Below are positions 6,336 through 57,838 of a stretch of 64,000 bases of DNA, piece by piece. The position numbers and the translations under genes were made by a program. The DNA comes from Collybia mongolica (taxonomy: Eukaryota > Basidiomycota > Agaricomycetes > Agaricales > Clitocybaceae). The notes under the pieces are model-generated. The model was not told where the DNA came from. It ran no database searches and was given only the letters and a program-made list of their open reading frames with translations. Numbering within the stretch: the first letter of the stretch is position 1; each line of letters starts with the position of its first letter. The DNA is taken from NCBI GenBank assembly GCA_013420905.1, contig JAAXNY010000012.1, positions 744,001 through 808,000 on the forward strand. Reading direction: 5' to 3'.

Positions 6336-7427
6336 TCAGGCAGGCATCGGCTCAATCACACTCTCAGTATAACCCGACATGACACGGGAACTCGCCCTTG
6401 TCCTCACCAAATGTGACCTCGACAGGTCGGGCATCGCCTCGAAGACACTCTCGGTGTAATTCGACGCCCTCGTCGTCCTCCCCGACCGCGTCACCGAAAG
6501 ATCAGAGTATGCCGGCGGTGACGTACTCCGCGCCGTGCCCGGGTACGACGGCAGCGTCGACACCGACACTGGGTATAAGGAATCTGAATACATCGTCGAC
6601 GGCCGCGACGCCTCAGGACCAGCGCTGGTGGGATGCCAGCGTGTGGACCATGACGCTGGCCGAGTCGGGAGGGAGTTTACGGTTCTCGGAGTCGTTATCG
6701 AAGCTAGTGACGCCCTATCACCAACACTGGATGCCTGTCGACATGCGGGCGTGGACGGCGTGGTAGGACCGTAAATCGTCAAGACCTGGGTTCGGATATC
6801 CGACTCCGGTATTATGATAGAAAGTCGTGGGGGTGATGGCCCCGGCGCCGCGTCCGGTGCTTGTTCTTCAGCTCTCACTTCTATTGCTGATCGTGCATTT
6901 TCTTCATCATTCTCCGCAGCTGTATGTGACGCCTGTGCTCCAGCTTCTGAGCCGGTAGATACCGACGTTGGTTGCTCTAACAGCCGCCCTACGTTTTCTG
7001 TCGCTGCATCCTCACGAGCATCCTGGTCCGTACCAGCTTCTGAGCCGGTAGATACTGGTGTTGGTTGCTCTACTGGCCCCCCTACGTTTTCTGTCGCTGC
7101 ATCCTGGTCCGTTCCAGCTTCTGAGCCGATAGATACTGATGTTGATTGCTCTACTGGCCCCCCTACGTTTTCTGTCGCTGCGTCCGCCCCAGCGTCCTGG
7201 TCCGTCCGCCTCTGGGGCTGGAGTGAGGACCTGCCCCTTGCCGTTCCTGTGCCTGTGCTTCGATCCAGAAGCACCACGTACTCAACCTGGCCCCTTGAAA
7301 GGCCTCCTTTGTTTCCCAGCTCAATATCCTTCTCCTTCCTGGCTCTGATTCTATAGCAGCAGAAACATACTCCGAACCCGAAGAGCATTAGGCCATTAAT
7401 AACAACCACCACCTCGAAACCTTCCAT
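6336..7427 (-). CDS. Single-pass membrane protein with C-terminal PPxY motif, paralogue A
   Basis: An uninterrupted 363-aa frame. Residues 4-25 are a hydrophobic segment, followed by a basic stretch (RIRARKEKD), so the protein is probably a type III or signal-anchored membrane protein with a long cytosolic tail. The tail holds three tandem repeats of about 27-31 residues (TENVGGPVEQ...STGSEAGTDQD), a Ser/Thr/Pro-rich part, and the family signature TMYSDSLYPVS, SYPGTARS, then SPPAYS at about 303-308. The motif YTESVxExMP occurs twice at the C-terminus. PPAY fits the PPxY ligand of WW domains of Rsp5/Nedd4 ubiquitin ligases; a role as a ligase adaptor is inference. Paralogues lie at 8145-8760, 12435-13280 and, split, at 14048-14510 plus 30566-30869. 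Confidence 0.65.
   Translation of the reverse strand: MEGFEVVVVINGLMLFGFGVCFCCYRIRARKEKDIELGNKGGLSRGQVEYVVLLDRSTGTGTARGRSSLQPQRRTDQDAGADAATENVGGPVEQSTSVSIGSEAGTDQDAATENVGGPVEQPTPVSTGSEAGTDQDAREDAATENVGRLLEQPTSVSTGSEAGAQASHTAAENDEENARSAIEVRAEEQAPDAAPGPSPPRLSIIIPESDIRTQVLTIYGPTTPSTPACRQASSVGDRASLASITTPRTVNSLPTRPASWSTRWHPTSAGPEASRPSTMYSDSLYPVSVSTLPSYPGTARSTSPPAYSDLSVTRSGRTTRASNYTESVFEAMPDLSRSHLVRTRASSRVMSGYTESVIEPMPA
6945..7200 (-). repeat. In-frame coding minisatellite in paralogue A
   Basis: Three head-to-tail units of about 81-93 bp share CCAGCTTCTGAGCCG, GTAGATAC, GGTTGCTCTA and CCTACGTTTTCTGTCGCTGC. The unit lengths are multiples of three, so the frame is kept. Paralogues B and C/D carry only one corresponding unit, so the array expanded in this copy. 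Confidence 0.75.
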
Positions 7428-14047: not shown

Positions 14048-14510
14048 TCAGGCATCGGGTCGAACGCCCTCTCGATAGTTCGGCATTCCATGAAGACTTG
14101 CCCTCGTTGTCCTCTGCAACAGAGCAGAGTACGCTGGTGGCGACGTGCTCCGCGCCGTTCCCGGCAGTGAGGCCCAAGCACCACCACTGAGCATATGTTG
14201 GTGCGCGGACTGCAACGCTAGCCGAGCCGACGCGGGGTGTATGGGACTTGGAATGATTGCTGAAGGTTGTGATGCCCTGTCGCCAGCACTGGATGTCGGG
14301 TGATATGCAGGGGGTGGAGTGTAGTACATGGGATCGGGACGTGTGGTGGAAAACTGGCCTTGGTGGTTCGCGTCGGGTATCACAATAGAAAGTCGTGGAG
14401 GTGACAACCTCGTCACCGTATTCGAAGCCTGTACTTCAACCCCTATTTGTACTGACGTCAATGTTTCTTGTTGTGTAAGTTCGTCTCCATTCTCCGTTTC
14501 TGGGTCTGTG
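14048..14510 (-). pseudogene. 3' half of PPxY membrane-protein paralogue C/D, cut by a transposon
   Basis: The frame contains SPPRLSIVIPD, as in paralogue A, two PPAY motifs (TPPPAYHP and TSPPAYSAL), LPGTARSTSPPAYS, and the terminal tail ending VRPDA. Its upstream end stops abruptly at 14510, where the terminal repeat CATCAGCAAA begins. The 5' half of the same gene lies 16 kb away at 30566-30869 on the same strand. Without the element and one CA target copy (minus strand) the two halves join in frame (PIFT then DPETEN), matching SVWTGPETG of paralogue B. Confidence 0.75.
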
Positions 14511-14528
14511 CATCAGCAAATCCTGATT
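14511..14528 (+). repeat. Left terminal inverted repeat of the Plavaka element
   Basis: CATCAGCAAATCCTGATT; 17 of 18 bases match the complement of the right end. It contains a short internal palindrome ATCAG/CTGAT. The flank to the left ends in TG. Confidence 0.85.
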
Positions 14529-14912
14529 GGTCTGCCGCCTGGTGTGACGGCACTGTGCAGAGACCTACAGTACCACAGAGTCCACAGCACACGTCCCTAT
14601 AGCGGCAGCTCTGTATGGTGACACAGGTCTTCTGTGGATTACTGTGTAAGCTATTGTTTTCACTGTGCATTACTGCACAGGACAGGGGAATTCCCTGGAG
14701 AGCTTTCCAGTCATGCCTATCTGCTGTATCGTTCTGGGTAATGCAATGAATCCCAGTAAGGATTGTTCAACATTGGGGGATCACACGGGTTCTCGAAATG
14801 AGGTGGCAATGTATTTATTCACTAACATGGGTATAAGCATAAATATAAGGTAAAAATTTATGTGGTTCGAAAGTGGCAGACAGGAAGCATATGATAGATT
14901 AAGGATGGGTTA

Positions 14913-17670
14913 CTAGTCGAGAATGATGTCAAGATTCATGTCATCCGGGGTCGGCTTCCCTTTCTTCGATTGCATCCTGGAATAGACATGAGTGGGTTCG
15001 AGTACCAAGAATATATGAGCACTTGCCTTCCAACCCTGGCAACTTCCTTTAGCATTTCATCAAACTTCGCACCATGATAATGATTCTCCTCGAGACGACT
15101 AATAAGATCCATGATTGCTTCATGTATTTCTGCATATCCATCACCATCAAATTTCAGTGTTATCTGTGTTCCGTCGGCATATTCATCGATGCAGTTGGCA
15201 ATCTGAAAATTTCATTTTTGGTTTGAATGAAGATATTGCAGGATTGGACCTACACAGGCGCACACCATTGCCAAACTCTTTTTGGGCAATGTGACGAAAT
15301 CCTTTGGGAAGATGTGACTCAAGCAAGATTTCTTTTTGCTATAATAAAATGCTCGACAGACTGTCGCAATGAGTGGGTTCCCAAAATTGGAAGTTTTACC
15401 CTAAAGTTCGAGGTGTCAGGAGCAATCAAAAGTTGCAGAAAAGTCTCGAACCCTTTCATCAAGATCACCTTGCAAAAAGAACCCTTTTTTGCGTAAACGC
15501 TCAGCATTTCTCTTCAGTGTTTCAGAGTAGTCTTCTTGGTTAGGGCAATCAGGCTGGAGCTCCTTAGAATAGTGAAGGGCTGTGAGGAGACGGCAGAGAG
15601 TCTTCAGCTGCCCTCGATATGATGCACCATCTTCGAAAATCTAGTGTAACATGTGAATATAAGTCTAATATCCAGGTCTAGTATAACATACCAAAATTGA
15701 CATTGAACGAAGATCATAGTAACCTATACATGGGTAAGTTAGTCTAGAGAATACCATTCAATGGATTTGAGGGTCATTACTGTCATCGAGTAGCTCTGTA
15801 TTACGTGGGTCGTCTTCGTATGCAGCCATCATTTCAAGGACACAGTCCCCAGCGCGTTGAAGAGTAGCTTTGGTACGTTCTGGAAAGGGATCCTGTGTGT
15901 GTATATAGAGGCGGTACTCGTTCTTGGCATTTTCGAGGATATCTGTCCATGCAGCACTGTCTTTATAATATTGCATCTGCGTGGGAAGTGTCTTTGAATC
16001 TTGTGTACTGTGGTTTGCATGTTGCTTTTGCAGTGGTTCGTCGATGTCACCAGCCCGGGCCTCGGATTCGTTGTCAGCATCATTATTGTCAGTGGTCTTA
16101 TCTGCACTCATATGGCGGGGTCTGGTGGGAGGTACCTGTTTGGTCACAGTATGTGCCTTGGTTGATGATTCTGACTGCCGATGGCGAGCTTGGGTCAAGC
16201 GCTCGCTATTGGGGGCACGAACCCTACGATTGGTTCTGTGATGGGCAGCAAGGACAGAATACGGAGCTTCTTCATCCTCTTAAGTGCTATGCAGTGAATG
16301 TCAAGATTAAAATGAGCCAACGAAGACCATACCTCTACTACTACCCTCAAATATCCCATTTAGTGCATTTGTAGCAACTCGTTCATCTTCGTCTGGTGAA
16401 TTTTCGTCAATAATCATGGGATCTATGATTTTTTTTAGCACTGGATTTTTACTTATTTGGGTATACTTCAAACCTGGGATGAGATCACGATTATTATCAA
16501 TATCAATAAAATTGTCTTCAAGCTCATTGCTGAAAGGATCGAGTGCCATCTCTGCGAGGTCTTCGGGGCTTAGTTTGGAGCCTATGTGTTCTTCATCTCC
16601 ACTTTTGTTGTCCTCCACCCCACTGTCGCCGCCACCTTCATCTTCATCATCTTCATCACTTTCACCCTCATCTTCGTATTCATCATCACTGGCATCAGCT
16701 TCGTTGGCATCAGCTTTGTCAGTGTCTTCATCCTCAATTTCCAACAGCCTACGAGTACCACCCCCCATATCCACATCCTCTTGGTCACTCTCGTTGTAGT
16801 CCAAGTCTTTATCATGGCTTTTGTTATTGTTGCGAGTACGCTCAGGTTCGGAATCGGGGGCAATATCTTGCAGAACCAGTTTCGGCTTGACAGGCTTGTG
16901 GGTCAGGGCACGATCGGTGATCCTCGCTTTCGCTGGTGGTAGGGGCGTTGATCCTTGATCTTTTCTTGTTTTCAACGCATGGGTTACTGTGACTCTTTGG
17001 TTAGTTTGTGATGGGCCAGCCCTGATAGTCGGTGGCTTTTCGTGCTCTGATGAGTTTGTTTTATGAAAGCCGAAAACTGTACCATGTGCTACGATTTTTT
17101 GCTGTGATGGTTTTGGCACACCATGTCCTAAGGGAGGATCTTTCTTGCGTACCAGAATCGGGACCTTCTGGAGAAAACCTGTCAAGATTGATCAAGACTT
17201 AAAGATTGTGCTTACTTGGACTGGTGCCGAGCGTTTTTTAACCTGTTTGGGATGTTCCTGTGGTGCCATGTCATTCGTGGGAACTCCATTGGGAATAACA
17301 ACTGCTGTTTTCGACTGCCTTGTTCCATCAAGGTCAGGCCGAAGTTTTTTCTCAAGCTGTGCAAGCTGGTAACCGACCCCGCCTTGGCCTTGGTTTGAAC
17401 GTTGGGGCCGCTTCTTAATGGCTGGAACAAATCATTTATATCTGAAAAACATGAGAGCTAAACTAATCATACTTTCTATATCTTTTTGGGTCAGAATCCT
17501 TGAACCTGAATATATAACATGAGGTGAGGGCCGTGATTATAACGAAAATCAAATGTCCTAGATGGGGACATACCTGAGTTTGGCGCATCACCATCACGAG
17601 CCCTTAATGACTTTGCCGGCCTTGGAGGGTCGCCTTCATCATTTGTTAATGTGCGCTTCTTTGGTGGCAT
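14913..17670 (-). CDS. DUF6532 domain protein, multi-exon, inside the Plavaka element
   Basis: Starts MPPKKRTLTNDEGDPP at 17670 with donor GTATGT at 17573. Several exons follow: a Pro/Lys-rich N-terminal region, a strongly acidic Asp/Glu stretch around 16600-16800, then YYKDSAAWTDILENAKNEYR and ERTKATLQRAGD. The core has SYRGQLKTLCRLL, NPLIATVCRAFYYSKK, FPKDFVTLPKKSLAMV and CIDEYADGT, the pattern of the DUF6532 family common in Agaricomycetes. The last exon (MQSKKGKPTPDDM...) is reached through a GC-AG intron and stops at 14913. The function of DUF6532 is unknown. The acidic N-terminal half suggests a nuclear or DNA-associated protein (inference). It lies in the half of the element opposite the transposase and appears intact, unlike the host fragments beside it. 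Confidence 0.68.
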
Positions 17671-18134
17671 TGCAGTCGGGAATATCAGAAACGTCTAGGA
17701 AAGGTTACGGTAAGCAAACAAAGGGGGGGAAATGCTTGAAACAGGTTTGGTTTGACGTGGCTAGGTGATTTTATTTGAGCCATCACGTGAGAACCAGGGA
17801 AGTAAAATAGTATCCAGCCACCCTGGAGATTCGGGTTCCTAGAATGAAGGAAGAGAAAAGTGGTACAATTGTTCTAGTACATCGTTTGAGGGATAAGAAT
17901 TTTGTAAAATTAAGCCTAATATCCAACGTACCCATATAATCTCTGAATTTCCTCGCCATCCACCTCATTCTGGTTTCAGTGCAGCACAGGTTTACACATC
18001 GCGTGGGGCAGGGTTCCTGGCGGGGGCTCAAGTGGGCAGGGGTTGTGTCTGGGTCCCAGACCATGAAGATAGTGCCACTGACTCCAGCTGTGCACTGGAT
18101 AACCAACTCAACCTCTACGCTGTAGGTCCCTGTG
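17671..18134. other. Spacer between DUF6532 gene and TCF25 fragment
   Basis: Holds the promoter of the DUF6532 gene and minus-strand DNA without a clear match. A frame with CVNLCCTETRMRWMARKFRDY near 17930-18010 looks protein-like, but I could not assign it; it may be another captured fragment. Confidence 0.35.
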
Positions 18135-19170
18135 TTCATGTCAGCCAGTGGACAGGGCGGCCCGGGAAAATGTGCACGTGGATTGCAAGGAAGAAAGGCC
18201 AGTTTTCTACATGATCGAAATCGAGGCAGTTCGTACCGCTCGTGAGGTTGAATGCCCCAATAAATGCTCATTCATAGGTGAAGATTACATGATTGACGAA
18301 ATCAACCACTTGCGCATACTCTTCAATATCATGCGATCAGAGGGGTTGATAAAGGGAAAGGTAAAAAAGGCTTCACCTTCACGATGCCTATACACCTCGG
18401 ATAACTGCAGCAGTGTATCAGCGTGCCATGGCAGCTTTCTGAGAATTTCCCAAAATGCTTCCAGATCTGAAAGGGGCGTGAGTGAATGCAAACACGACAT
18501 GCAGCATTCCATGTACCGCCAGCCATAACACTTCAAATGAACACCTTGGTTGCGCTTTTGTACTGTTTGCTATAATCCACCATCCACCACTTTTCATCCG
18601 TACACCTCTGGCCTTTCAACTCCATTTCTCCACCCATTAAAGGACGAACAGATAGGCCTTCGCATTGACTGGCCGGCCACCAAGTAGGCTGGGGACGGGT
18701 CAAGTTAGACCTTTGCACCGTGACCTGCCTCCTCAATGATAATCCTGGTGCACCTGATGGCCCCGATTTGTTGGCCTGTACGACTTTGGCACCAAAGAAT
18801 TTATGCATCTCAGCTTCACTGTCCAGGTGCAACAAAGAGACCGATAATAAGCTTGCTAATGACTGGGCGTTGGGGCCATGACACGTAGATGCCTGTGACT
18901 TGGGATATCTGTGCTTGGGATCAGTCGGAATCGATGTATATTGTACAATAGAAAGTCGTACTTCATAGTAAGCTCAGCAAGCACTTTGTCCAGTTCATTG
19001 TTCACCGCTTTCTTCTCCCTCGCCTTTGCCTTCTTCAAAGCCTTCTTTTCATTCTTCACGGGGGGCGTCACCACAGGGGGAGTGTTTCGCACTGACTTAG
19101 GAGTGCCAGCAGGCGAAGCAGCTGTGACTGCTTCAGGAATTACAGTCTTCTTCTTCTTTTTCTTCTACTG
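18135..19170 (-). pseudogene. Captured fragment of TCF25/Rqc1-family gene, decayed
   Basis: Reading on the minus strand: KKKKKKTVIPEA, ALKKAKAREKKAVNNELDKVLAEL; then SLASLLSVSLLHLDSEAEMHKFFGAKVV, SNLTRPQPTWWPASQCEGLS and YSKQYKSATKVFI; then FWEILRKLPWHADTLLQLSEVYRHREG; then VDFVNHVIFTYE, stop, AFIGAFNLTSGTN and LDFDHVENWPFFLAIH. This order is that of TCF25/Rqc1, a subunit of the ribosome-quality-control complex. The 5' exons and the C-terminal third are missing, so it cannot make a working protein. The internal stop is TGA where family members have Arg, and neighbouring Cys and Trp also replace expected Arg: all are C-to-T changes at CpG. Introns are kept, so genomic DNA was captured. Confidence 0.8.
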
Positions 19171-19539
19171 GTTTATCACTGACTTAACTGCAAGTAAGGC
19201 CTCGTTCACCCAAAGGAATGACAATAAGATGACTTGCTTTCAGACTCACTCAGACAACTCGTTTCTTGTGTGCAGGAAGAAAGTACGAGTGAGGAACATC
19301 ATGTCCAAATTGAACAGGTTCGGAGTTGGGTGAGGAAAAGGTGAGGACAGGATGTTAATGTCTTGGTTAACTGGTTGGTCAGTCTCGGTGAAAGGCATTG
19401 TGGACACGTACATAGTCAATCAATAGCTATCAATCACTAATCAGGTGCACGTGTTGCGTTACCAAGAGCCGAAATCTCCATCAACCCAAAGTAACGTCCA
19501 ACTTATGGACATCAGAAAGTATCAATCAGAGAGTAATGC

Positions 19540-19810
19540 CTTCACAACCCCTAGTCATCCTTTGACACTACGTTGAACTCGATAGACACCCCACTGTCAC
19601 CTACTGAACCATTTGCTGACACTCACACATACAACCCCCTTCAAATACAGGAGGGACTCGCGCTTCCTATACCCTCTATTGTATCGCATTGCAGATAACA
19701 CGAATAATGTTCAGGACATTGATGAACATGACTCCGACTCAGGCAGCAGTCTACTGTCCCCCAGCCATCCTTTGACACAACCTCAAACCTCAATGGATGC
19801 CCCACCGTCA
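19540..19810 (+). repeat. Direct repeat of about 60 bp near the start of the calcium-ATPase fragment
   Basis: CATCCTTTGACACTACG...CACCCCACTGTCACCTACTG near 19555-19604 recurs as CATCCTTTGACACAACC...GCCCCACCGTCACCTACTC near 19765-19818, about 210 bp later. It probably reflects a local duplication at the edge of the captured segment. Confidence 0.45.
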
Positions 19811-20214
19811 CCTACTCCTACAAGCCAAAACAAATGACGCACCAGGCTGAGCTGGCCCAAGATTGTGACATAGCCCGCAGAGGAGAAGGCAGAGAAGAAG
19901 AAGGATAAGAGAAAGGGCGCTGGTGAAGGGGCTTCTCCTAACCATAACACATTTCCCGAGAAGCAGGATTCGCCTCAAATGCCCGTCCCATCGATCATTT
20001 TATCTACACCCGACGTGCCAATCCTACCTTCCGACGGCCCCGCATATGCTGCCACCTTAGACGTTCGCAGAAAATCATACGGCTCGAACATTCTTCCTAC
20101 CCACGCGTCAAAATCCCTCCTACAGCTCATGTGGATGGTGTTAAAGGACAAAGTCCTCGTCCTCCTCTCTATTGCTGCTGTGATCTCGTTCGCTCTCGGC
20201 CTGTTCCAAGGTTT
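19690..20214 (+). pseudogene. Captured PMCA-type Ca2+-ATPase fragment 1 (N-terminal)
   Basis: The frame carries VPSIILSTPDVP, DGPAYAATLDVRRKSYGSNILP, and KSLLQLMWMVLKDKVLVLLSIAAVISFALGLFQ, which is the N-terminal cytosolic part and first membrane helix of fungal vacuolar/plasma-membrane calcium pumps (Pmc1 type). A TAG and a TGA interrupt the low-complexity N-terminal part. The homology ends inside the exon at about 20214, where glycogen debranching enzyme sequence takes over within a few bases. Confidence 0.75.
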
Positions 20215-23200
20215 CGTGTCGTTTTGAACCATACCGCCAACGACAGTCCGTGGTTATCAAATCATCCCGAAGCAGGCATGTGTGTTGTCTTCGTTGACAC
20301 ATTCTTGTTAACCTCAAATTTGGTTAGGATATAGCCCGGCCAACTCACCTCATCTCACTCCTGCGTTTGAGCTTGATTCCGCTATCATCGACTTCTCCGG
20401 ATCATTGACTTCCCTGGGGCTCCCGGCTAAAGTCAATACGCTTGAAGATCTGGACAACATTGTCAACGCTTTCGACATCGTTGTCAAAGATTTGAACTTA
20501 TGGCAATATTATGTTCTCGATAGGGCTCAGGAGCGAGAGGCTGTCAAAGCCGCCCTGATGACTAGCAACTTTGGCGTTTGGACAGACTCTGATGTTAAAG
20601 GAAAGACTGTTGCCGAACTTGCACGAATCGTTAAGACCCAGGGAAAGGTCAAAGGTCTCGGAGGGTTGGCCTCCCGCTTTGGTGTCAGCATAGACCCATC
20701 AGTGGCAGCATCGCTAGTGAAGGCCGCACTTACCGACATTATTGATTCAAATGCGCTGGCAGATGCTTGGGTCCAGATAGTCGACGTCCTCAACGTCCCG
20801 TTATACGAGGAATGGGAGGAGGACATTAAGATCGCTGTGGATAATGTTCGGAACCGAATCAAATTCACTCGGCTGGATGAGCATGGTCCAAAGTTGGGTG
20901 AAATATCCAAAACGTACGTTTTTTAATCAATTTGTGAGTGCATCTCTTGACACAGCCCAACTTAGCATCCCTCTCGTTGAGCCTTACTTTACGCGCCTGG
21001 CTCCTTCATCGAAGGCAGACCCCTTAGTTTACTCACTCGCAAACAACGGATGGATTTGGAATGCCGATCCTCTACAGAACTTTGCCCTCTCTCCTTCCAA
21101 AGCATACCTCCGTCGTGAAGTCATCGTCTGGGGCGACTGCGTAAAATTGCGTTATGGCTCCTCCCCCACAGCCAATCCTTGGCTGTGGGCACACATGACC
21201 AAGTATGTGACAAACTTAGCCCGCACTTTCGACGGGTTCCGTATCGACAATTGCCATTCCACTCCACTAGATGTGGGTACCTTCATGCTCGATGCGGCGA
21301 GGGTTGTAAGGCCGGACCTATATGTCTGCGCTGAACTGTTCACAGGGAACGAAGACATGGATTTAGTGTTCGTTAGGGAGCTAGGAATTAATAGTTTGGT
21401 AAGAGAAAGCGGAAACGGATTTGATGTCAAGGAGATGTCGAGGTTGATATATAGACATGGAGTTGGGAAACCAATCGGTGGGTTGTTTCCTTGGTTTTTT
21501 TTTCCGGCAAGTTTTATGTACAAGCATTTCAGGTTCCATGGACAACGCATGCTTAGTCCACGAAGACGAGCTCCCCTCACCCACTGGAAAGGGACCTATA
21601 CGTAGCTGTGTGGTCAGCCCCCTTAGCGGCTCTCTGCCACATGCACTCTTTTATGATCTTACCCATGATAATGAATCACCTCTCGACAAGCGCTCTGCGG
21701 AGGACGCTCTTTCCACTGGAGCCCTGGTCGCATTTAGCCACAGTGCTATCGGCTCCGTGAAGGGCTTCGACGATCTCTATCCAAAACTATTGAACCTCGT
21801 GAACGAGAATCGGAAATACGATCTCACGGGGCTGGGACCGGAAAGTGGAATTGCGAAGGTGAAAAGGGTACTCAATGGCTTGCACCTTGAAATGATGCTT
21901 GGTGGGTTTGAGGAAGGTCATGTTCATCAGGAAAACGACGTAAGTTTCCTTCAGTAACAACTGAGCTCACTTGGATGATAATACTTTTGGGAGGTCAGTA
22001 CATACTATTCCACCGCGTTCAATCTACGACGCAAAAGGGATATCTCTTGATTGCGCATACAGCGTTTACGAAGGGGTCCAAAGCTCGAGGTTCTGGTAAG
22101 ATTAGTTTCGCAATTTCTGCCTCACAACTACAACTAATGGTTGCTAGTTAATCCAATCAAACTTCGGGGAACAAGGGCCAAGCTTGTCCTTGGTGCAAAC
22201 ATTGAAATCTTGTCATACGAAGTACCCCAAGACTCAAAGCTTCTCCGTGGTCTACCTGCGAAGCTTGTGGGGATATCCACCGTGGGCGTTTCTCTGTGCC
22301 TCGATAAAGAAGGTCCCTACACCGAAATTATAGTACCAGAGGCATTCCCACCAGGTAGCATTATGATCTTCGAAACCCAACGTCAAGAATATGATCCCTC
22401 TCTCGATTCTTTCTGCTCCTTTGGGGTTCAGCAAGCATTCGGTGGTCTGGACCTGGTAGATCTGAATGTTATCCTATATCGCGCTGACGGGGAAGAACGC
22501 GATGCAACTGAAGGTCAATTTGGGGTGTATGACGTTCCAGGACTCGGGAAAATGGTGTACTGTGGGCTGGAAGGCTGGATGCATCCTCTAAGACACATTA
22601 TGCGGTACAATGACCTGGGCCATCCTCTTTGCACACACCTCCGGGAGGGAAGCTGGGCGTTTGACTATATTCATGAACGTCTTTCTCAGTACGTTATTTG
22701 GTATATGGACGTTCATTATTTTTCACTATGTTTCACCAGTCAACTCGGAACATTCCCGAGGCTATCAAAGCCTGCGCAGTGGTTGAGGGAACGTTCAGAA
22801 CGCATCAAAGCCCACGTTCCCAATTTTATGCGTCCCAAGTACTTCGCACTTATTATATCTGAGGCCTACAAAGCTGCCCGCCGCTCCGCCGTTGAACAGT
22901 TTTCCAGTTTTGTTGTTTCGGGACATGCATTCACCCATGACCTTGCTATGTGTGCTGTCCAGATGCACGGCTTAGTAAAGTCAGCGTCCCTCGATCCTAG
23001 CTTGGCTACTCCCTCACTGGCTGCCGGTCTTCCTCATTTCACCACAGGTTGGGCGAGGTGTTGGGGTCGAGATGTGTTCATTTCTCTCAGAGGTCTTTTC
23101 CTAACGACTGGTAACTTTGAAGGTGCCAAGAAACACATCCTGACCTTTGCGTCGACTTTAAAGCACGGTCTGATACCAAATTTATTAGACTCGGTCCGAA

Positions 23201-23250
23201 ACCCCCGGTGAGCCTTTAGGATGAATCATTATTCGGTCCTTTCTAATATA
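20215..23250 (+). pseudogene. Captured central fragment of glycogen debranching enzyme
   Basis: Begins in VVLNHTANDSPWLSNHPEAG, then exons with AFELDSAIIDFSGSL, NGWIWNADPLQNFA, LRREVIVWGDCVKLRYG, FDGFRIDNCHSTPL (nucleophile Asp of the 4-alpha-glucanotransferase site), VCAELFTGNEDMD (acid/base Glu), DLTHDNESPLD, and ends in FTTGWARCWGRDVFISLRGLF and GLIPNLLD, the start of the amylo-1,6-glucosidase domain. The enzyme family normally exceeds 1500 residues; both ends are cut here. Most frames are open and introns are kept (one has a GC donor). It sits between calcium-ATPase fragments 1 and 2, so it interrupts that gene. Confidence 0.85.
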
Positions 23251-23625
23251 ATGTGATGAGTCGGGCGCGACGGGTGAGTCAGATGCCATCAAGAAGGTAT
23301 CTTTCGAGGACTGGTCCCAGATGGGGAATGATAGCGCACATACGGAGTGTTTTATGGTTAGCAGCAGTAAGGTTTTAGAAGGCGTTGGATGCTATGTTGT
23401 CATTGCCGTCAGAACGAAAAGCTTTAATGGCCGAATTATGATGGGTATGTTCTTATTTTCCTCCAGCCCTCAGAGGAGATACTGAGAATACGCCCCTTCA
23501 GCTCAAATTAAACCACCTCGCTGAATTAATTGCGAAGATTGGCTCGCTAGCTGGTCTCTTAATATTCTCTGCGCTTATAATAAGATTTTTTGTCCAATTG
23601 GGCACTAATGAACCTCTGAGGTAAG
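23251..23625 (+). pseudogene. Captured PMCA-type Ca2+-ATPase fragment 2
   Basis: CDESGATGESDAIKKV, then TECFMVSSSKVLEGVGCYVVIAVRTKSFNGRIMM, an intron, and TENTPLQLKLNHLAELIAKIGSLAGLLIF ending FFVQLGTNE. It covers the actuator domain TGES loop to membrane helix 3. About 90 residues between fragment 1 and this piece are absent and the debranching-enzyme piece occupies that place. Gly-to-Ser and Gly-to-Arg replacements (SSSKV, AVRTK) fit G-to-A changes. Confidence 0.8.
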
Positions 23626-23645
23626 TTTTAATGTTGTGCTCGCTA
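23594..23645 (+). repeat. Junction repeat, copy 1
   Basis: TGTCCAATTGGGCACTAATGA, then GAGGTAAGTTTTAATGTTGTGCTCGC, at the end of calcium-ATPase fragment 2. A near copy lies at 25886-25940, after calcium-ATPase fragment 3. Both mark edges of captured segments. Confidence 0.65.
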
Positions 23646-24655
23646 CTGTGGTTACTGACTATATTCGATGTCCCCGGCCATGACAGTACACCTTGGAAAG
23701 TTTATGCAGAGTGGGGGAAAACTTTTGGTAAGCCCCCTGAACAGTCCAATATGCACGTCGCAGAAATATTCAAACGTGGTCTTCTCAGGGGATATTATAC
23801 ACTTCAGTGTCCTCCCAAAGTCGATCGTGGTGATCAACTCTGCCCATATTGCGCATGCATTATTGGAGAAGCGAAGCGCTATCTATTCCTGTCGACCATA
23901 TGTCCCCATGGCGGGTGATGTGTAAGCATGGGTTTACTCTTTTTACTGTTTAATTAATGAGTATTGTGTAGCATCGGTTGGAAGTGGGCCTTACCGTTGG
24001 TTCCATATGGCGAAACTTTTCGTCGCCATCATCGATACCTTCAGCAATACTCTGCGAAGAATTGGCTTCCTAATTATTATTACATTCAGTGCAAAGAAGC
24101 TCGGCGGCTTCTGAATGATATTCTCAACAATTCCGACAACTTCAAATCTCACATAGGGCGGTAAAACCTAACCCCCTTGGTAGTCTGGGTTGTTTGAACC
24201 TTTTTTCCAGGCTTGCAGGTGCCGTCATAATGAATATCGTATTCGGACACGAAGTACATTCAATAGATGACGAATACCTCACTATTGCACCTAAAGGTGG
24301 TCGGACAATAGCTGCGGCTGGGGCTGTTGGCTCTCACATACTTGATCTGATTCCCCTTTGTACGTTGATTCTATCGGAAGGTGTGAGTTGATAATAACCA
24401 AATACTTAACCAGTGCGCTTTCTTCCTGACTGGCTCCCAGGAACTGGCTTTAAGCATCTTCCTCGAGGAACCAGAGAAGATCTCTCCGCAATGCGCTATA
24501 TACCATTCAACCATGTAAAAGAAAAAATGGTAAGCACTCAACGCTTTTGTAGAAATCCTCCGATTTTAAAGTCAAAGGAACAGGCCAAAGGGATGGCTCG
24601 GTCTTGTTATGTTTCTGATTTACTTGAAGACACGAATTTTCAAGATGAAGACTGA
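23646..24655 (+). pseudogene. Captured N-terminal half of a cytochrome P450
   Basis: Small exons with TPWKVYAEWGKTFG, DIIHFSVLPKSIVVINSAHIAHALLEKRSAIYSCRPY, WALPLVPYGETFRRHHRYLQQY, LAGAVIMNIVFGHEV and PDWLPGTGFKHLPRGTR, then KGMARSCYVSDLLEDTN, match the N-terminal half (helices A-G) of Agaricomycete microsomal P450s. The oxygen-binding helix I, the ExxR motif and the haem-binding cysteine are all absent. Introns are kept. The piece lies inside an intron position of the calcium-ATPase gene. Non-functional. Confidence 0.78.
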
Positions 24656-24659
24656 CTAT

Positions 24660-25885
24660 TTTGCGTGCTCCCAGGTCTTCCTCTGGCGGTGACTCTCGCC
24701 CTGGCCTTCGCGACGAAACGCATGACATACGAAATGCTCCTTGTCCGCGTCCTCGGCTCTTGCGAAACTATGGCCAACGCTTCGGTGATTTGTACGGATA
24801 AAACAGGAACTCTTACACAGAACGTTATGACTGTCGTTGCTGGTTCCGTCGGCAATCACGCAAAATTCGTGCGACACCTCGAGGACAACGCCGAGCGCAC
24901 AAACGCGGATGAAAACCCCTCACCTGTTCTCGCACGGGAGCGTAAACATCACGAGGATTTTTCTATTGACCAGGGCCACCGTTCTCTCCAGATCTCCTGC
25001 TCTCCGTGAGCTGTTCAACGAGGCAATCGCTGTCAATTCTACGGCGTTCGAGGATGTCAACCCCGAAACACAACAGGTTGCCTTCATCGGAAGCAAAACC
25101 GAGACCGCGCTGCTCAAGTTCGCACAAGAACTCGGCTGGAGCGATTTCAAGGAGACGAGGGACGCGGCGGAGATTGTGCAGATGGTGCCGTTCTCAAGCG
25201 AACGTAAGGCTATGGGTGTCGTGGTAAAGAAAAAGGATGGAAAAGGTTATCGGCTCTACTTGAAAGGTGCTAGTGAGATCTTGTCGAAAAAGTGCAGGAC
25301 CCATGTTGTGGCGAGCGCCCCGAAGGGCAAGAAGCCCTATTTTTCGGACGACGATGAGATCGAAACACAGGACATCGACGAACTGGCCGAGGACAACATC
25401 ACCCGAACTATCATCTTCTACGCCAATCAGACTCTGCGGACAATTACCCTGTGCTATCGGGATCTCGAATCATGGCCGCCTCGTGGCGTCGAGCTTGATG
25501 AAAATGAAGAAGTCAGTTTTTCATGTTTAACAAATGATGACGTTGTTAATTATTCTATCGACAGGTCCCCTATGATTCTCTTGCTCAAGACCTCACGCTG
25601 ATTGGAATCACCGGGATTGAAGACCCACTTCGCGAAGGTGTACGTGAGGCGGTTGCAAAATGCCACAAAGCCGGTGTCACTGTCAAGATGTGTACCGGAG
25701 ACAATGTGCTTACCGCGCGGTCGATTGCCACGCAGTGCGGCATCTTTACACCTGGCGGCATTATCATGGAAGGCCCTGTGTTCAGGAAGCTTACCCAGTC
25801 CGAGATGGTGGAAATTGTGCCCCGGCTCCAGGTGCTCGCTCACTCACCACCGGAAGACAATAAGGTACTCGTCGCTCCACACTTC
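24660..25885 (+). pseudogene. Captured PMCA-type Ca2+-ATPase fragment 3 (P- and N-domains)
   Basis: [20 protein letters not shown] (helix 4), [13 protein letters not shown] with the phosphorylated Asp, IGSKTETALLKFAQ, MVPFSSERKAMGVV, YLKGASEILSKKC, an intron, then IGITGIEDPLREGVREAV, TVKMCTGDNVLTARSIA and LAHSPPEDNK. The sequence breaks off before the hinge motif TGDGTNDGPAL and helices 5-10, so no pump can be made. The catalytic part is well preserved, which suggests recent capture. Confidence 0.85.
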
Positions 25886-25940
25886 TGTCCAATTGTACAC
25901 TAATGAGCCCCAGAGGTAAGCTTTAGTGTTGTGCTCGCCG
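25886..25940 (+). repeat. Junction repeat, copy 2
   Basis: TGTCCAATTGTACACTAATGA, then GAGGTAAGCTTTAGTGTTGTGCTCGC, closely related to 23594-23645. Here it directly follows the truncated calcium-ATPase fragment 3. Confidence 0.65.
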
Positions 25941-26179
25941 GTGTGGCTTTGCTGGCCCATGTTTGTTAAGGAATTGTCGATTCTGAAGATTTCTGCCTCT
26001 CAGAACTTGAAGCTCGGTATTCACAAAGATGTGCAGAACCGTAGCAAAATGGCGACAGAAAGGTTTGAATTCCAGGATGAGATCAGTATGCCCTTGTTCA
26101 TACTCAACCATCTGAGATCAGGCTGACGTTTATTGCAGAAACCTAATCTAACAAGGAGATTTTCCTTCGTAAACTGATC

Positions 26180-26345
26180 TCCAACAGCTCTGTCACCCTG
26201 GGCCAGAAGATCACGGTTGCATCCAGGGAGGGCATTGTCATGGTGCAGTTCAAGGATGTTATCAATACCATGGTGGATAAGCTCGGTCAATTTGCAAAGG
26301 CAGTTACTCGTGTTTCCCAAAGCTGGAACATAGCCATGTTACTCT
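26180..26345 (+). pseudogene. Captured HAMP-repeat fragment of a group III (Nik1-like) histidine kinase
   Basis: The frame LGQKITVASREGIVMVQFKD, VINTMVDKLGQFAKAVTRVSQ follows the repeated HAMP pattern of fungal Nik1/Os1 kinases (GDLxQKITV...LKxTINTMVDQLxxFAxEVTRV). Only about 45 residues remain. The DNA on both sides is unassigned. It is the fifth host gene represented in the element. Confidence 0.65.
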
Positions 26346-26405
26346 GCTATCTTTGAAGGCTGCGACTGTAGGAACCCAATTTTACTTTCACAACTAAATA
26401 ATAGG

Positions 26406-26883
26406 TCAAACAACTATCTTATTCAATCGAGGATGATGCCAATGGAACCCCTTTGTGTCTTGATAACGTATTGAGCTAAAGTAGATTTATTGAGATAAAT
26501 TATGAAAGGTAATGATAAAAACTCACGCCCATCATGGTGAATCGAATGAGGCTGATGCATGCCACACGGTTCTCGAATATCCCCGAAACCACATTTTCTG
26601 ATAGTCCACCTGGCCCTTCCTACACGTCGATCAGCCAATGCAAGCTGCTGCTGTGCATGGTAATAATCTTGGAGAGCTTCACGTAAATCCACAACAGCAG
26701 CTTTGACAGCATCCATCCAGAGAAGGCGTTCATCGTTAACCAACTCGAGTGTGTGTTTTGCTTCATGGGCAGTGTTTATAACATCAGAAAATTCGAACTG
26801 TGAAGGTAACATGAAAATACATGTATGAGATGTGGCGAAATGCCACTCACTGAATCAACCAACTCTGTGCTGTCACTATACAT
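26406..26883 (-). CDS. Small 118-aa protein inside the Plavaka element, three exons
   Basis: Exons 26883-26851 (MYSDSTELVDS), 26797-26527 and 26458-26406 join with GT-AG introns of 53 and 68 nt to a complete frame ending HHPRLNKIVV. The middle is a helical, coiled-coil-like segment (AHEAKHTLELVNDERLLWMDAVKAAV, LREALQDYYHAQQQLALADRR). It is transcribed away from the transposase, with about 170 bp between the two starts, so they may share a promoter. I do not recognise the family. Its place and intactness suggest that it belongs to the element rather than being a captured host gene. Confidence 0.5.
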
Positions 26884-26909
26884 CTTCTAGAGGGGAACCA
26901 CGGCTGAAT

Positions 26910-26924
26910 GGGGGGGGGGGGGGG
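26910..26924 (+). repeat. Homopolymer of 15 G
   Basis: Fifteen consecutive G between the divergent starts of the 118-aa gene and the transposase. It could form a quadruplex-like structure or be a slippage site; it may also be miscounted in assembly. Confidence 0.8.
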
Positions 26925-27048
26925 CGTGTGGTCTTTAGAACTTGGTTAGAGATGCCGTGGTGTTGGTAGATATCATACAGTTTGTGCTAGTAAACGGATT
27001 AGTGTGCGCACAAAAACCAAGTCCATTTTCCCACAGTATACACCACCC

Positions 27049-30000
27049 ATGCCTCGATGTCCTCAATGTTGCCGCTGGTTCAAGGACAAACGTGCTGTTC
27101 TGGCACACACAAACCAACCAAGGGGGTCCTGCTTTGGCTATAAAGAACAAATCAGATCTCTCTCTGATGACCTCGAGCATTACCGCCACCGCAAACGGGC
27201 CAGAACTTCTGCAACACCAAACTCCGAGACCTTGCATCTGCACGACAACGACATTGCATTCAGTACTACTTCCAAGGATATAGGAGACTCTGGTGGTATG
27301 GACATCAACCCTGGTGGCATGGATGTGGATGACTCAGATGAGCCCAAATTTTTCGTCGAAACCTTTCAAGGTGCTGGGGAGATTTTTGGTACTGGTCGAA
27401 CCTTTTTGGACCAGTTTGACAAGGACAATTTTGCACAGGAGCGGGCTCATAACATATATTATCCATTTGCCTCTCGAGATGAGTGGGAGCTTGCATCATA
27501 CCTTCTCCAGTCAAACCTGAGCATGGCGGCAATTGATAAATTTCTTTCCCTCCATCTCGTAAGTCTTTCAGCTTCCTTTGCTTGTAGGAGTAACCCTGCA
27601 TGTACCTTTTCAGATTAAAAATTCTGGCCTTTCATTCAGAACAGCAAAAGAGCTTCGTGGACGTGCTGAAATGCTTCCCAGTGCGCCGGAGTGGAAATGC
27701 AAACACTGGACGACAAATATTCCAACAAAAAAACCAATCAAACTATTCTACCGTGATCCATTGGAGTGCATTCAATCACTCCTTCACAACCCCCTGCTCA
27801 ACGGCCACATTTCATTCACCCCAATGCGAATATTTGACACAGCAACAAAGGCAATACGTACCTATACGGAGTGGATGACGGGTGATGCTGCATGGTCAAT
27901 GCAGGTATGTACACTCCATGTTGCTTCCCATACAATTGTGAACGTAATTTTAGGCAAAAATTTCTCCAGGTGGTACGCTTCTCGGCACGGTTCTTTCATC
28001 AGACAAAACCAACCTAACAGCAATGACTGGCGGCCGAATGGCTCACCCCCTTCTGTTGAGCCTTGCGAATATTGATATGAAATTTCGCATGAAATCATCT
28101 AATCGCGGCTTTGTTCTTCTTGCCCTCCTTCCTGTCCCAAAATTTCTTCACAGAAAAAGCAAAATCCGTGGTATGCTCGAAGCCCGTCTAATTCATGAAT
28201 GCCTTGACTTTGTTCTTCAGCCATTAAAAATTGCTGCTCGCATTGGAACGATGATGTCCGATCCACTTGGGAATCAACGATATGTCTACACAGGCCTCGC
28301 TGCTTACATTGTAGACACTCCAGAATCTGCATCCCTGTCTGGAGTGGCTGGGATGACGTCGTCCATCACGATGGCAACATACAAACATTTTGGTGACTCT
28401 TTTCGACATGAACCACGCATGGCTTCAACAACCATTGCTCAATTGCATGCGCTAGAGGAAGTAGTAGATCCCTGGGATCTTGAAACATATGCTTCGACTG
28501 CTTTAGAACGCTTTCGCCTTGGTGGTGTCCATCGTCCATTTTGGCGAGACTGGCCAATGGCAGAACCATCAGAATTTCTCACACCTGAGCCACTTCATCA
28601 CTGGCATAGAATGTTCTGGGACCATGATATGAAGTGGTGCATTCATGCTGTTGGAAGCCACGAAATTGACTTTCGACTTTCAGTGTTACATCCTCATACA
28701 GCATACCGTCACTTTCAAGAGGGTGTCTCGGCCCTCAAGCAAGTTACAGGACGTGAACATCGAGATCTCCAGCGTTATACTGTTGGCGTAATTGCAGGCG
28801 CTGTCCCAAAACACTTTTTCATTGCAATTCGAGCATTAATGGATTTTCGCTACTTGGCACAGGCACCCGAAATCTCAGACAAGGGATTAATCAAGATCGA
28901 AGAGGCACTGAAGGAGTTTCACAAACATAAGGATGCCATCGTTGCAAGTGGGGCTCGAAATGGCAAGAAAAAGGCAATCAAAGACTGGAACATTCCCAAA
29001 CTCGAATTCCTACAGAGTGTCGTACCAAATATCCATGACAATGGTGTTGCTATGCAATGGTCTGCAGATATAACAGAACGTGCTCATATTACGGAGATCA
29101 AAATTCCTGCAGACTCAACCAACAACCAGAACTATGAATCGCAAATCTGTCGTTACCTTGATCGTGCTGAAAAATGCCATTTGTTCAATCTTGCAACTGT
29201 TCTCCGTGACACTGGCATAGATTTTCATTCCTCAGACCACATGCCGAGTGATAGCAATAATGATGGTGAGGATCCCGAAGAATCCATTATACCCGTCAAC
29301 TCCACCATGTCTCTTCTTGCAAACATTGATCATGTCAATCCACTGGTGGGAACAACTAGAGCCAAAACTGACTATTTTCGATTGGCAAGAGAACTTGAAC
29401 ATGGGTTACATCCCACCGCTCCACACCCTTTTCGCACCTTTGTGTCTGGCAAGACAGCTATTCACCTTGTGCGCGATCCCAGCTTTAGACGAATGACCAT
29501 TGAACAGGTGGCGAACCAGTTCAATCTTTTGGATCTCCCTGGTGCAATTGCTGACTATATGTCCTTCGGGAGCACTACTAGTGATCCAGTCAGTGGTCGG
29601 TGGGTAGCTAATCAGGACTCTCCCCGACTTGGGACTGTCAAAGCACTTGAAGTCTGGACTAAAGTACGAATTCAGAACTATGCATACCATGCACTGCATG
29701 ATGTACTACTCGCCCAGACTGTAAATGCTTTTCCCCCTTCAAAGGATTGGCCCGTCGGTCGCAGTGATGCAGTGATCATTAATACAGATTCAACAAAGGT
29801 ATGGCCACATAGTGGTTTTGAAGGTGAGGCTCCATTTCTATTGTTGGCGTTATCATTTCATTCATATTCTTGATGATAGGTCACCGTGTTGCACAAATTC
29901 GGCTCATTTTTCGCATCATCAGCACTGAAACTATGACGACTTTACCAGGAGCTGATCAGTTCCTCACATATATGCAGCAATTTGATATCATTCCCCAAAT

Positions 30001-30268
30001 CAACCAAAGGGTGTCGGGATCAAGCAGGAAAGGCCCATATCCTGATCCAGCCTCAAATATGTATTGCTTGAAGCGGGCACGGAGAAGTGACAACACCATC
30101 AAAGGAGATGTGGTAGCATTGGCACGAGTCCGAACACTTGCAGATTTAATCCCTCACTTCGGCACAAAGGCTGATCCAAGATTGTCAAAGGAAACTGCAT
30201 TGGAATACAGTACCGAATTCTTCCTGAATAAATACCTAGATAAGGAGCTATTTTATGCATTTAATTAG
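27049..30268 (+). CDS. Plavaka transposase, intact, four exons
   Basis: Exons 27049-27558, 27614-27904, 27954-29823 and 29880-30268 join with clean GT-AG introns to 1019 aa without a stop. The N-terminus has a C2H2-like finger (C4, C7, H20) as in basidiomycete Plavaka proteins. Core blocks include FYRDPLECIQSLL, GGTLLGTVLSSDKTN, GGRMAHPLLLSLANI, HECLDFVLQPLK, WDHDMKWCIHAVG and LQRYTVGVIAGAVPKHFFIAIRALMDFRY, followed by an acidic linker and a C-terminal domain. It would cut and join the terminal repeats of the element. No CGA-to-TGA stops are seen, unlike in other mobile DNA of the window, so the element may still be autonomous. Confidence 0.88.
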
Positions 30269-30547
30269 TTCCCATTATGGTTTTTATTATCAAGCTCTTT
30301 GTTCAACAATGTGGACTTAGTGACTGATCTGACATGATCTGTATAGAAACAAGGGCTCCTTTATGATGATGTACAGACCTGAAACATCCACACAAAGCCG
30401 TACAGAAAAGGCCCAGTCTGTACAGGCTGAATGTGTTCTATTCAGCTCTGCACAGCACTGTGAAGTCATGATCAGCTCTGCGTAGCACTGTGAAAACACA
30501 GACGAAATCGAGAGACACTGAGGTTCCTGTCGGCTATTTGTGGGAAA

Positions 30548-30565
30548 AATCAGGGTTTGCTGATG
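30548..30565 (-). repeat. Right terminal inverted repeat of the Plavaka element
   Basis: AATCAGGGTTTGCTGATG on the plus strand, complementary to the left end except for one base. The flank to the right begins TG, matching the TG before the left end. Upstream subterminal DNA at 30340-30500 repeats TCTGCACAGCACTGTGA and related motifs, likely transposase-binding sites. Confidence 0.85.
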
Positions 30566-30869
30566 TGAATATTGGCGTCGGTTGGCGCATAAAGTCCCCA
30601 GCGTGTTCCATCGTTAGATCCTCTTGAGTGGCAAGGCCGTTTCGTTGTGGTGGCTGACGTGATGACGGTCCACACGATATGCTTTCGCCGGTATCCAAAA
30701 GCGGCACATATTCAGCGTGAATCCTCAAAATGTCTCTCTCATCACCTAGTTCGAGCTTCTTCTCCTTCCTAGACATACGTCTCCTCCAGTCGACAAATAA
30801 AGCCAAGATTGCGCACATGACGAGTACTACGCTGATAATCGCAACTCTCGCCAGAAACCCGATGTCCAT
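30566..30869 (-). pseudogene. 5' half of PPxY membrane-protein paralogue C/D, cut by the transposon
   Basis: Starts MDIGFLARVAIISVVLVM at 30869: a hydrophobic segment (residues 5-25) followed by WRRRMSRKEKKLELGDERD, equivalent to the juxtamembrane part of paralogue A (ARKEKDIELG). HAEYVPLLDTGES corresponds to VEYVVLLDRSTGT of A, and MRQPTPIFT to VEQPTPVST. The homology ends at the terminal repeat. The 3' half is at 14048-14510. The start and promoter remain, so a truncated 111-aa protein running into the element is possible. Confidence 0.78.
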
Positions 30870-31737
30870 ACCAGTAGAACGGAGACTGCTCTTTGAGTGG
30901 GTGGCCCAATTTTGGGGATAGTGTTCAATGTGGTAGCAGTAGCGGTCGTACTTTCTGGTTGTGGCTTGCCCTCGATGAGAATGATATATGTTGCCAATTG
31001 ATGGAGTCTATATCAATGCAGTCAGGGGTGTACTTTTGAACGCAGTGCTAGGCGCCTATCAGACGATGGCTACTGAATTCTACAACAATCACGAATATGC
31101 GATGAATCACCCGCACTCACAACGATCCCGAAGCATCGCAAACACGTAGAAACCAGTGAGATGGCATGTAAGATATGCTAAGGATAGTTAGAAGGACTGG
31201 TCTGGCACACGTACAGGAATAGTTCGATGGTCAGTAGGTTTGGGTGATTGAGATCAGCATGCTTCGTCTGTATGAATCCTTGTTTCCCAATCAAGTCCCA
31301 ATAGGAAATAATATCCACGCATTGCATATCAATCACAAAAGCGTATCGGGGAAGTTGATTTGAGGCCAGATAGTAAACGGGAGAAGCCTCTTACATGTTA
31401 GATGCGATGTACTTTAATCTGTACAGGTGAAAAATTATTCATCCGGCAAACACCGAATTGATCAACAGCTCGATTTTCAACGTTCAACGTTCAAATTTCA
31501 AAAAAATTCGATCATTGCTGTAACAAACCACTACAGCTCCGCCCTGGGACCTGAGTTTGTAATAACAAGGGGGCAATATTGTGATGCCCCATCGCGCTGG
31601 ACGAAAACATATTGAAAGAAGCTAGTAGTGACTTCTCTATAGCCTCTTTTGAAGAATAGTAAAAATCGACAAACGTATAAGTACTTCAAAACAAATCTAT
31701 TCTGCATACCTCATCCGCTACAAAATGACCCCGTTAT
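30870..31737. other. Promoter side of paralogue C/D, no gene seen
   Basis: The first 250 bp are related to the 5' flank of paralogue A (GTAGAACGGAGACTGCTCTTTGAGTGG against GTAGACAGGGGATTACTGTTCGAGTGG; GCTAGGCGCCTATCAG). The rest shows no recognisable gene. Confidence 0.5.
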
Positions 31738-37103: not shown

Positions 37104-37192
37104 TGACCGAGGTAGGTCTCGAACCTACAATCTCCTGATATTCATGCGCTGCGCAGTCGTAGTCAGACGCGATGCCATTTCGCCACACGGCC
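37104..37192 (-). tRNA. tRNA-Arg(ACG) with intron
   Basis: An 89-nt gene. The D arm is GCGA/TCGC, the anticodon stem TCTGA/TCAGG with loop C-T-ACG-A, the variable loop AGATT, and the T arm GTAGG/CCTAC with loop TTCGAGA. The acceptor is GGCCGTG/CTCGGTC with one G-U pair and one U-U mismatch. A 17-nt intron lies at the canonical position after base 37. A run of six T follows shortly after the 3' end, fitting RNA polymerase III termination. Confidence 0.82.
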
Positions 37193-39409: not shown

Positions 39410-39497
39410 TGACCGAGGTAGGGGTCGAACCTACAATCTCCTGATAAGGATGCTGTCGCAGTCGTAGTCAGACGCGATGCCATTTCGCCACACGGCC
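39410..39497 (-). tRNA. tRNA-Arg(ACG) with intron, second copy
   Basis: 88 nt; the same mature sequence as the copy at 37104 apart from the T-loop (TTCGACC), with a different 16-nt intron. The acceptor again has a G-U pair and a U-U mismatch, so these are features of this tRNA family and not decay of one copy. TTTTT follows the 3' end. Confidence 0.82.
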
Positions 39498-41911: not shown

Positions 41912-42083
41912 ATGCTAATTACTGTGTGTAAAGTACACTGTGGGTAACATCTGGGATCATAGGTGAAAAGATTCGTAGGAAGATTCGATTAGATAATAAG
42001 CCCTCCCACATCTGTATCCGAAGTTGATCTGAGAGCTATCTCTGAGTCACTTTCTATTAACATGCGCAGGTTCCTTCATCAAT

Positions 42084-44960: not shown

Positions 44961-45149
44961 GCTTCTGCCTGTTTTTCTACAATGATTTTGTAAAAGGAGG
45001 TGAGTTCAGGAACTGACACATTATTTTTTTCATGGGGCCCTGTAGATGCTGTGATTTTTTGATGTTCCATAGTTGATTAGAATTGAACAGACATTTTTAT
45101 AGTCCTTGTAGCACTTTACAGATGAGCATAAATTTAGCTATAACTGCTG

Positions 45150-57824: not shown

Positions 57825-57838
57825 GGTGTAAGATGATG

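Follow-up and report, generated by a model that had tools for sequence, protein, structure and literature searches.

How does a cut-and-paste transposon come to carry pieces of several unrelated host genes? This question is raised by a 16,055-bp element of the Plavaka group (14511..30565) in a 64,000-nucleotide stretch of DNA from the fungus Collybia mongolica. The stretch, called the window here, corresponds to C12:744001-808000 in an assembly of 46.0 Mb and 26 contigs (C1, C5 and so on denote contigs; positions without a prefix are those of the window), and source loci were searched in the same genome. An earlier sequence-only reading had proposed that the element captured host genes, which is supported by parent genes elsewhere, by further copies of the element, and by a cargo that is partly shared among them. 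The multi-gene cargo between the inverted ends of a Plavaka element is confirmed as a real observation. As for its origin, we give a probability of about 0.72 to the reading that the element gained pieces of six host genes serially, through internal breaks that would have been patched and joined end to end.

The element and its own genes

The element was delimited by its inverted ends, its target duplication, and comparison with sister copies. An end-pattern search placed the 18-bp terminal inverted repeats (TIRs), CATCAGCAAATCCTGATT on the left (14511..14528, plus strand) and CATCAGCAAACCCTGATT on the right (30548..30565, minus strand), with one mismatch between them. The 2 bp immediately outside each end are TG (14509..14510 and 30566..30567). 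When up to three mismatches were allowed, the end pattern had three matches in the window (0.19 expected), a count reached in none of 100 shuffles. Genome-wide, the end sequence matched exactly at 67 sites, 32 in forward and 35 in reverse orientation, and the reversed control pattern matched at none. The sequence-only reading had reported the 18-bp ends and suggested looking for more copies with the same termini; the ends hold, with the TG/TG duplication added to them, and the 67 matches supply the copies. A solitary site resembling an element end, with two mismatches, lies at 45266-45283 on the minus strand.

The transposase gene (27049..30268, plus strand) was modeled with three introns (27559-27613, 27905-27953, and 29824-29879), 1019 codons, and zero internal stops. 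Its product contains the complete Pfam Plavaka domain (PF18759, 1-325 of 325, E 1e-91) as well as DUF6830, and the earlier description of an intact 1019-amino-acid enzyme is borne out by the stop-free model and the full domain. The top relative among the best 120 of 775 matches is from Collybia nuda (61% identity over 92% of the length). Between the window copy and its sister on C17, the ratio of nonsynonymous to synonymous differences (pN/pS) in the transposase was 0.20, which suggests selection for a working enzyme while the copies diverged. A second element gene (15758..17670, minus strand), in a region common to the sister copies, was modeled as an acidic protein of 563 amino acids and had no Pfam match.

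PlavakaB elements have been defined by CATCA..TGATG termini and target duplications of 2 or 3 bp (PMC12730594, 2025). Their transposases carry C(2)C and H(3-4)H motifs with catalytic D, D, and E residues, and Plavaka transposases are related to those of CACTA/EnSpm (PMC12730594). The element in the window matches published PlavakaB in its CATCA..TGATG termini, in a 2-bp duplication (TG, TC, and TA at three copies), and in the Pfam Plavaka domain of its transposase. A six-frame search of the genome returned 119 Plavaka transposase domain matches (several per gene), and the group is therefore abundant in this genome.

Captured host-gene pieces and their sources

To find source loci, the central part of the element was searched as DNA against the genome in which it lies, and the matches were refined with BLAST. 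The window copy holds pieces of six source genes, namely TCF25, the calcium ATPase PMCA, glycogen debranching enzyme (GDE), cytochrome P450, HSP90, and a HAMP histidine kinase. The TCF25 piece (18105..19177) has its sense strand on minus and is 93.6% identical to C5:326754-327839. The host TCF25 model has 78% identity to Collybia nuda and 60% to the next among the matches listed. All other pieces lie on the plus strand, and three of them are long. The GDE piece (20217..23249) is 98.8% identical to C8:1417471-1420502 over 3,033 columns, the P450 piece (23657..24651) is 96.7% identical to C11:1691874-1692868 (minus strand of the parent), and the main PMCA piece (24651..25874), which is common to both sister copies, is 94.8% identical to C1:7861716-7862941.

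The remaining PMCA sequence, assigned by BLAST like the main piece, is scattered around these. It includes a patch at 19548..19605 that is a second, diverged copy of C1:7859820-7859878, the first pieces at 19642..20216 (C1:7859703-7860773, with two internal deletions of coding sequence), a middle piece at 23250..23659 (C1:7861123-7861574), and a repeat of the patch C1:7861507-7861566 at 25887..25946, downstream of the main piece. The gaps in these pieces are not spliced introns, as the parent has open coding sequence in their place. HSP90 is represented at 26002..26192 by two pieces whose order is swapped (C9:671430-671475 followed by C9:669977-670152), and the HAMP kinase piece (26199..26319), found in the genome search, is 83% identical to C7:20942-21059.

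Parent identity was supported by Pfam for TCF25, P450, the cation ATPase, and HSP90, and through the captured piece itself for GDE. At the kinase locus, Pfam detected HAMP only on an adjacent frame, and the matching frame had no Pfam match. All captured pieces are partial, and introns are retained in all four that were tested (GDE, TCF25, P450, and the main PMCA piece), which indicates capture from DNA. In these respects the sequence-only reading, which had described truncated pieces with introns kept, was accurate, and the parents at high identity that it proposed to look for were recovered at the percentages given above for GDE, P450, main PMCA, and TCF25. Its list of five source genes is extended to six, as HSP90 had been overlooked.

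Sister copies and the likely order of capture

Two sister copies, C17:386902-404789 and C16:1175903-1189042, are ~92-97% identical to the window copy over both arms and over the PMCA-HSP90-HAMP block. They are flanked by TC/TC and TA/TA duplications, respectively. The PMCA, HSP90, and HAMP pieces are thus transduplicated, being present in three copies on different contigs; since these copies have different target duplications, the cargo has moved. With BLAST, the GDE, P450, and TCF25 parents had no match in either sister copy. The sister transposases look damaged, with one in-frame stop at C17 (under the intron model of the window copy) and a 1.29-kb insertion at C16.

The order of events can be read from what each lineage has lost. 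The window copy lacks positions 7860774-7861122 of the PMCA parent (349 bp), where GDE now stands, and positions 7861575-7861715 (141 bp), where P450 stands. The sisters lack positions 7861042-7861515 and have there a 157-bp piece with 97% identity to C6:2615263-2615419, a donor gene that is splicing-factor-like and has an RRM domain (Pfam). Given these reciprocal losses, the simplest common ancestor is one with an uninterrupted PMCA piece that was patched separately in each lineage. All three copies share differences from the PMCA parent at 20 sites in the main piece and at 8 sites in a 5' piece. Because the sites in common are scattered over the main piece, we favour a single capture over re-copying of PMCA from the host into the window copy; the stretch at about 383-681 of the piece is without copy-shared sites.

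At the TCF25 position, the other four copies carry a segment of 681-684 bp instead. Over about 475 bp, its 684-bp version is 72% similar to a locus that contains an OPT-transporter frame, a weaker assignment than those of the other pieces. This OPT-transporter-like segment is old, and TCF25 likely replaced it. Taken together, the likely order is that PMCA, HSP90, and HAMP came first, and that the two lineages then gained pieces separately, the RRM piece in the sisters and TCF25, P450, and finally GDE in the window lineage. Two broken copies, C17:1069411 and C8:3116197, showed no right half in the stretches read. The former was considered as a pre-capture state and rejected; a PMCA-like patch is already present just before its break, and it is more likely truncated.

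All eight assigned pieces, in the window copy and the sisters, have the same sense as the element gene closest to them. PMCA, GDE, P450, HSP90, HAMP, and the RRM piece of the sisters point toward the transposase, and TCF25 and the OPT-like segment toward the left-arm gene. Under independent coin tosses this would occur in 1 of 256 cases, a figure for a pattern that was spotted post hoc.

Junctions, decay, and a probable donor allele

Seven late joints, namely both joints of TCF25, GDE, and P450 and a single joint of the RRM piece, were scored for identity that continues across the joint. Overlap was 0 bp at six of them and 1 bp at one. An eighth late joint, judged by eye, may share 2 bp and shows a small deletion. 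Each of the four late events (TCF25, GDE, P450, and RRM) entailed loss of resident sequence, in amounts from 141 to 684 bp. The combination of flush joints and resident loss would fit repair of a break with a patch and end joining.

The captured TCF25 differs from its parent by C-to-T changes at 35 of 142 CpG bases, compared with 5 of 403 other C/G bases, and the ratio of CpG decay in the element to that in the parent is 35:3. For the main PMCA piece this ratio is 40:1 in the C16 copy, 22:4 in the C17 copy, and 14:6 in the window copy; for P450 and GDE it is 8:5 and 4:3. The loss of CpG in TCF25 and in the PMCA of the sisters fits methylation of the element followed by deamination, as read from base changes. 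The pieces also differ in coding damage. TCF25 has acquired three stops and a deletion of 13 bp, the main PMCA piece of the window copy has a single deletion of 2 bp, GDE has a single insertion of 1 bp and no stop, and P450 has 32 changes in 992 positions with no stop and no frameshift. In GDE, 21 of 30 coding differences from the resident gene are silent (24% expected, p = 1e-7), which points to another allele as the probable donor. Most simply, GDE would have been copied from such an allele very recently.

How the pieces may have been gained

In the serial capture that we prefer, a break or gap would open in the middle of the element, perhaps via incomplete repair after excision, and DNA of an unrelated gene would be copied or ligated into the gap. 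The ends would then be sealed with little or no shared sequence, and with both arms and the transposase intact the element would keep moving with its new cargo. The captured pieces are predicted to be silenced along with the element, because CpG loss in the older pieces exceeds that in their parents. This excess is also the sole sign related to the chimeric transcripts or small RNAs against parent genes that the sequence-only reading suggested the element could generate.

Several observations weigh against this account and call for caution. A five-copy tree puts the window copy first, with weak support (69 and 53), so that the priority of TCF25 or the OPT-like segment at their common position is not settled by the tree. 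The divergence of TCF25 (57/1073) exceeds that between the arms of the copies (121/3594), and it fits a late capture only once CpG changes are set apart. The excess of CpG loss is small or absent in P450, GDE, and the main PMCA piece of the window copy. The probable other-allele donor of GDE makes dating by divergence from the assembly unsafe, and since GDE, P450, and TCF25 were seen in the window copy alone, they rest on one assembly. The HSP90 and HAMP matches are short and diverged, and their exact donors are less sure. With regard to the joints, at least six flush joints in seven arise ~11% of the time with random ends, and flush joints do not separate copying from ligation of ready-made fragments.

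The joints also have a recurrence that the proposed mechanism leaves unexplained. On the resident side, three of the six joints in the window copy (19178, 23654, and 24651) abut the motif ACTGAC. When six resident 6-mers were drawn at random 200,000 times, three alike were never obtained, a comparison in which the motif was spotted late and its length of six bases was picked after seeing it. Two of the three resemble branch sites of PMCA introns by eye (AG acceptor within about 30 bases). The P450 piece lies between two ACTGAC copies, both of which are already present in the sisters and the parent and are therefore not a fresh target duplication. The motif at the joints hints at preferred break sites.

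The alternative that we regard as a real contender, at somewhat below even odds, is that the pieces were copied by polymerase template switching (fork stalling and template switching, FoSTeS, or abortive strand-invasion repair) and not joined as fragments. The repeated PMCA patch and the swapped HSP90 pieces beside HAMP look like successive jumps, and gap filling with short microhomology has been proposed for metazoan Pack-TIRs (PMC8277862). In that study, microhomology was reported at one or both breakpoints in 67.6% of cases, which contrasts with the absence of overlap at six of our seven scored joints. This counterpoint is itself limited, as the scored joints are the late ones, without the old HSP90 and HAMP joints, and the same ~11% chance applies. 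Insertion of the pieces into the Plavaka element by another type of transposon (e.g., a Helitron) or by a site-specific process appears very improbable. Helitrons do carry gene pieces in plants and animals (PMC4289320), and the ACTGAC motif at three of six joints, with P450 between two copies, hints at a site preference. Nevertheless, the late pieces are flush with loss of resident sequence, both copies flanking P450 pre-exist, and no foreign ends were visible at the joints by eye (no program search for Helitron termini was made). Moreover, the Helitrons of Pleurotus are reported to lack host gene fragments (PMC4289320).

A misassembly, in which gene copies of the other haplotype were joined into the element, would account for the mostly silent and allele-like differences of GDE (21 of 30), for a P450 with neither new stop nor frameshift, and for the restriction of GDE, P450, and TCF25 to the window copy. 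We consider this highly unlikely. The backbone of the element is confirmed by three copies, the late RRM piece of the sister lineage is present in two of them, TCF25 has its three stops, 13-bp deletion, and heavy CpG loss, and the 32 changes in P450 point to separate copies. Least credible to us is aberrant excision of neighbouring copies that packs the host DNA between them into a hybrid element, as has been proposed for Pack-CACTA in Arabidopsis. The mechanism is described in a 2026 review, and the relation of Plavaka to CACTA/EnSpm (PMC12730594) would make it conceivable; yet the pieces come from six different contigs, GDE and P450 lie inside the earlier captured PMCA, and no captured piece adjoins a terminal repeat.

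A broader version of serial capture, which we put forward only tentatively and think rather doubtful, is that a central capture bay exists in the PlavakaB elements of this genome. Breaks favouring ACTGAC between the two divergent element genes would be repeatedly patched, with new patches overwriting old ones and pieces placed in sense to the neighbouring gene; the cargo would be methylated and could steer silencing to the parent genes. If this were true, a fungal transposon with its own transposase would act as a serial gene collector.

Insertion site, related elements, and other features of the window

When the flanks of the element are joined with one TG, a single minus-strand frame of 300 codons spans the joint (146 codons on one side and 153 on the other), compared with 48, 23, 47, and 24 codons on the shorter side in four shifted joins. 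The element thus probably interrupts a coding exon of the gene at 14051-14510 and 30568-31007 (minus strand), for which there was no Pfam match. At the two sister copies, joining the flanks in this way (300 bp from each side) left no long frame open. No paralogous empty site was found, in that the left 800-bp flank matched only itself; the right flank was not searched.

Short elements of ~1.53 kb (e.g., C8:3413770-3415303 and C12:86423-87956) are ~82-88% identical to the two outer parts of the element (its first 633 bp and its last 512 bp). Among 35 matches to their middle, 21 are full length, and at least 8 of those 21 are at 100%, which suggests that this short family was recently active. 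The middle matched only element copies, apart from one 69-bp match, and no host parent gene. Two stretches of 3,353 bp each, C1:8155009-8158361 and C2:484320-487672, look like inverted pairs of short elements with the right ends outermost, and are perhaps a mobile dimer. On C1, another stretch of 12 kb is bounded by TIRs; its initial 3 kb had no match to the window element other than the element's end, and none to the PMCA or GDE parents. The longest open frame in these 3 kb has 445 amino acids and looks by eye like the RNase H region of a retroelement.

Elsewhere in the window, CpG is scarce at 56000-64000 (observed/expected 0.04 and 0.14 in two 4-kb blocks), and a 235-bp inverted repeat (59642-59876 and 60921-61155) surrounds a DDE_3 transposase fragment at 59883-60389. 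A stretch at 41849-47522 occurs twice in tandem, with a spacing of about 3.1-3.8 kb and mostly 84-92% identity, and its start is overlapped by an F-box-like frame (40643-41911) just below the Pfam cut-off. Similar tRNA genes lie at 37104-37192 and 39410-39497 (minus strand), one being tRNA-Arg(ACG) and the other having an ambiguous anticodon. At 6939-7205, three successive copies of a unit (spacing 93 and 81 bp) lie within a minus-strand frame (6336-7427) that had no Pfam match.

Comparison with known systems

Uptake of host genes by cut-and-paste elements has been argued mostly from plants and animals, and here it can be followed in one fungal family as an ordered series. The series comprises an old capture common to the copies, later histories that differ between two lineages, likely donors, flush joints, a recurring motif, and a mutation signature that helps to distinguish old pieces from new ones, and the element may thereby give a stepwise record of how host genes are gathered in fungi. 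Whether captured pieces set off silencing of their parent genes in mushrooms also becomes a testable question. With an intact transposase frame, and with short-family copies at 100% over their middle, capture could be sought live in the laboratory.

The sequence-only reading had likened the element to Pack-type or Helitron capture. Helitrons are not known to have terminal inverted repeats. They also make no target duplication (PMC4289320), in contrast to the 18-bp inverted ends and 2-bp duplication found here. The closer likeness is that to CACTA and Pack-type elements. Pack-TYPE elements (PMC8903248) and metazoan Pack-TIRs (PMC8277862) hold host DNA between terminal inverted repeats, as does our element. 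Pack-TYPE elements are non-autonomous elements of plants (PMC8903248), a class that the present element, with its 1019-codon transposase, falls outside. Closest in cargo is Tgm-Express1 (PMC1947982), a soybean CACTA with TIRs and pieces of five unrelated host genes in which exons and introns are kept. It is a plant element of 5.7 kb; the one described here is 16 kb long and has an intact transposase frame and sister copies that inform on order.

Among fungi, transduplication of histone H3 by hAT elements in Pyrenophora and Mycosphaerellaceae (PMC3538342, PMC6710886) is likewise capture of a host gene by a cut-and-paste element, and there too the copies decayed by mutation as the original survived (PMC6710886). 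That capture involved one gene, reported to be intron-free and taken from a transcript (PMC6710886), unlike the six genes gained here in several steps and with introns where tested. The PlavakaB elements described for Agaricomycotina (PMC12730594) share the CATCA..TGATG ends, the 2-bp duplication, and the Plavaka transposase. In some of their families the extra gene is a TET/JBP dioxygenase (PMC12730594), whereas the second gene here had no Pfam match, and the present element carries partial pieces of six unrelated host genes. Consistent with the earlier remark that no multi-gene cargo was known in a fungal Plavaka element, serial host-gene capture in such an element was not found in the open literature searched, a scope outside which most papers of subscription journals fall. 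Fungal hAT elements that captured a single gene and a plant CACTA element that captured several are already in print; within the scope searched, what is new is the serial capture of pieces of several genes by a Plavaka element whose transposase frame is intact.

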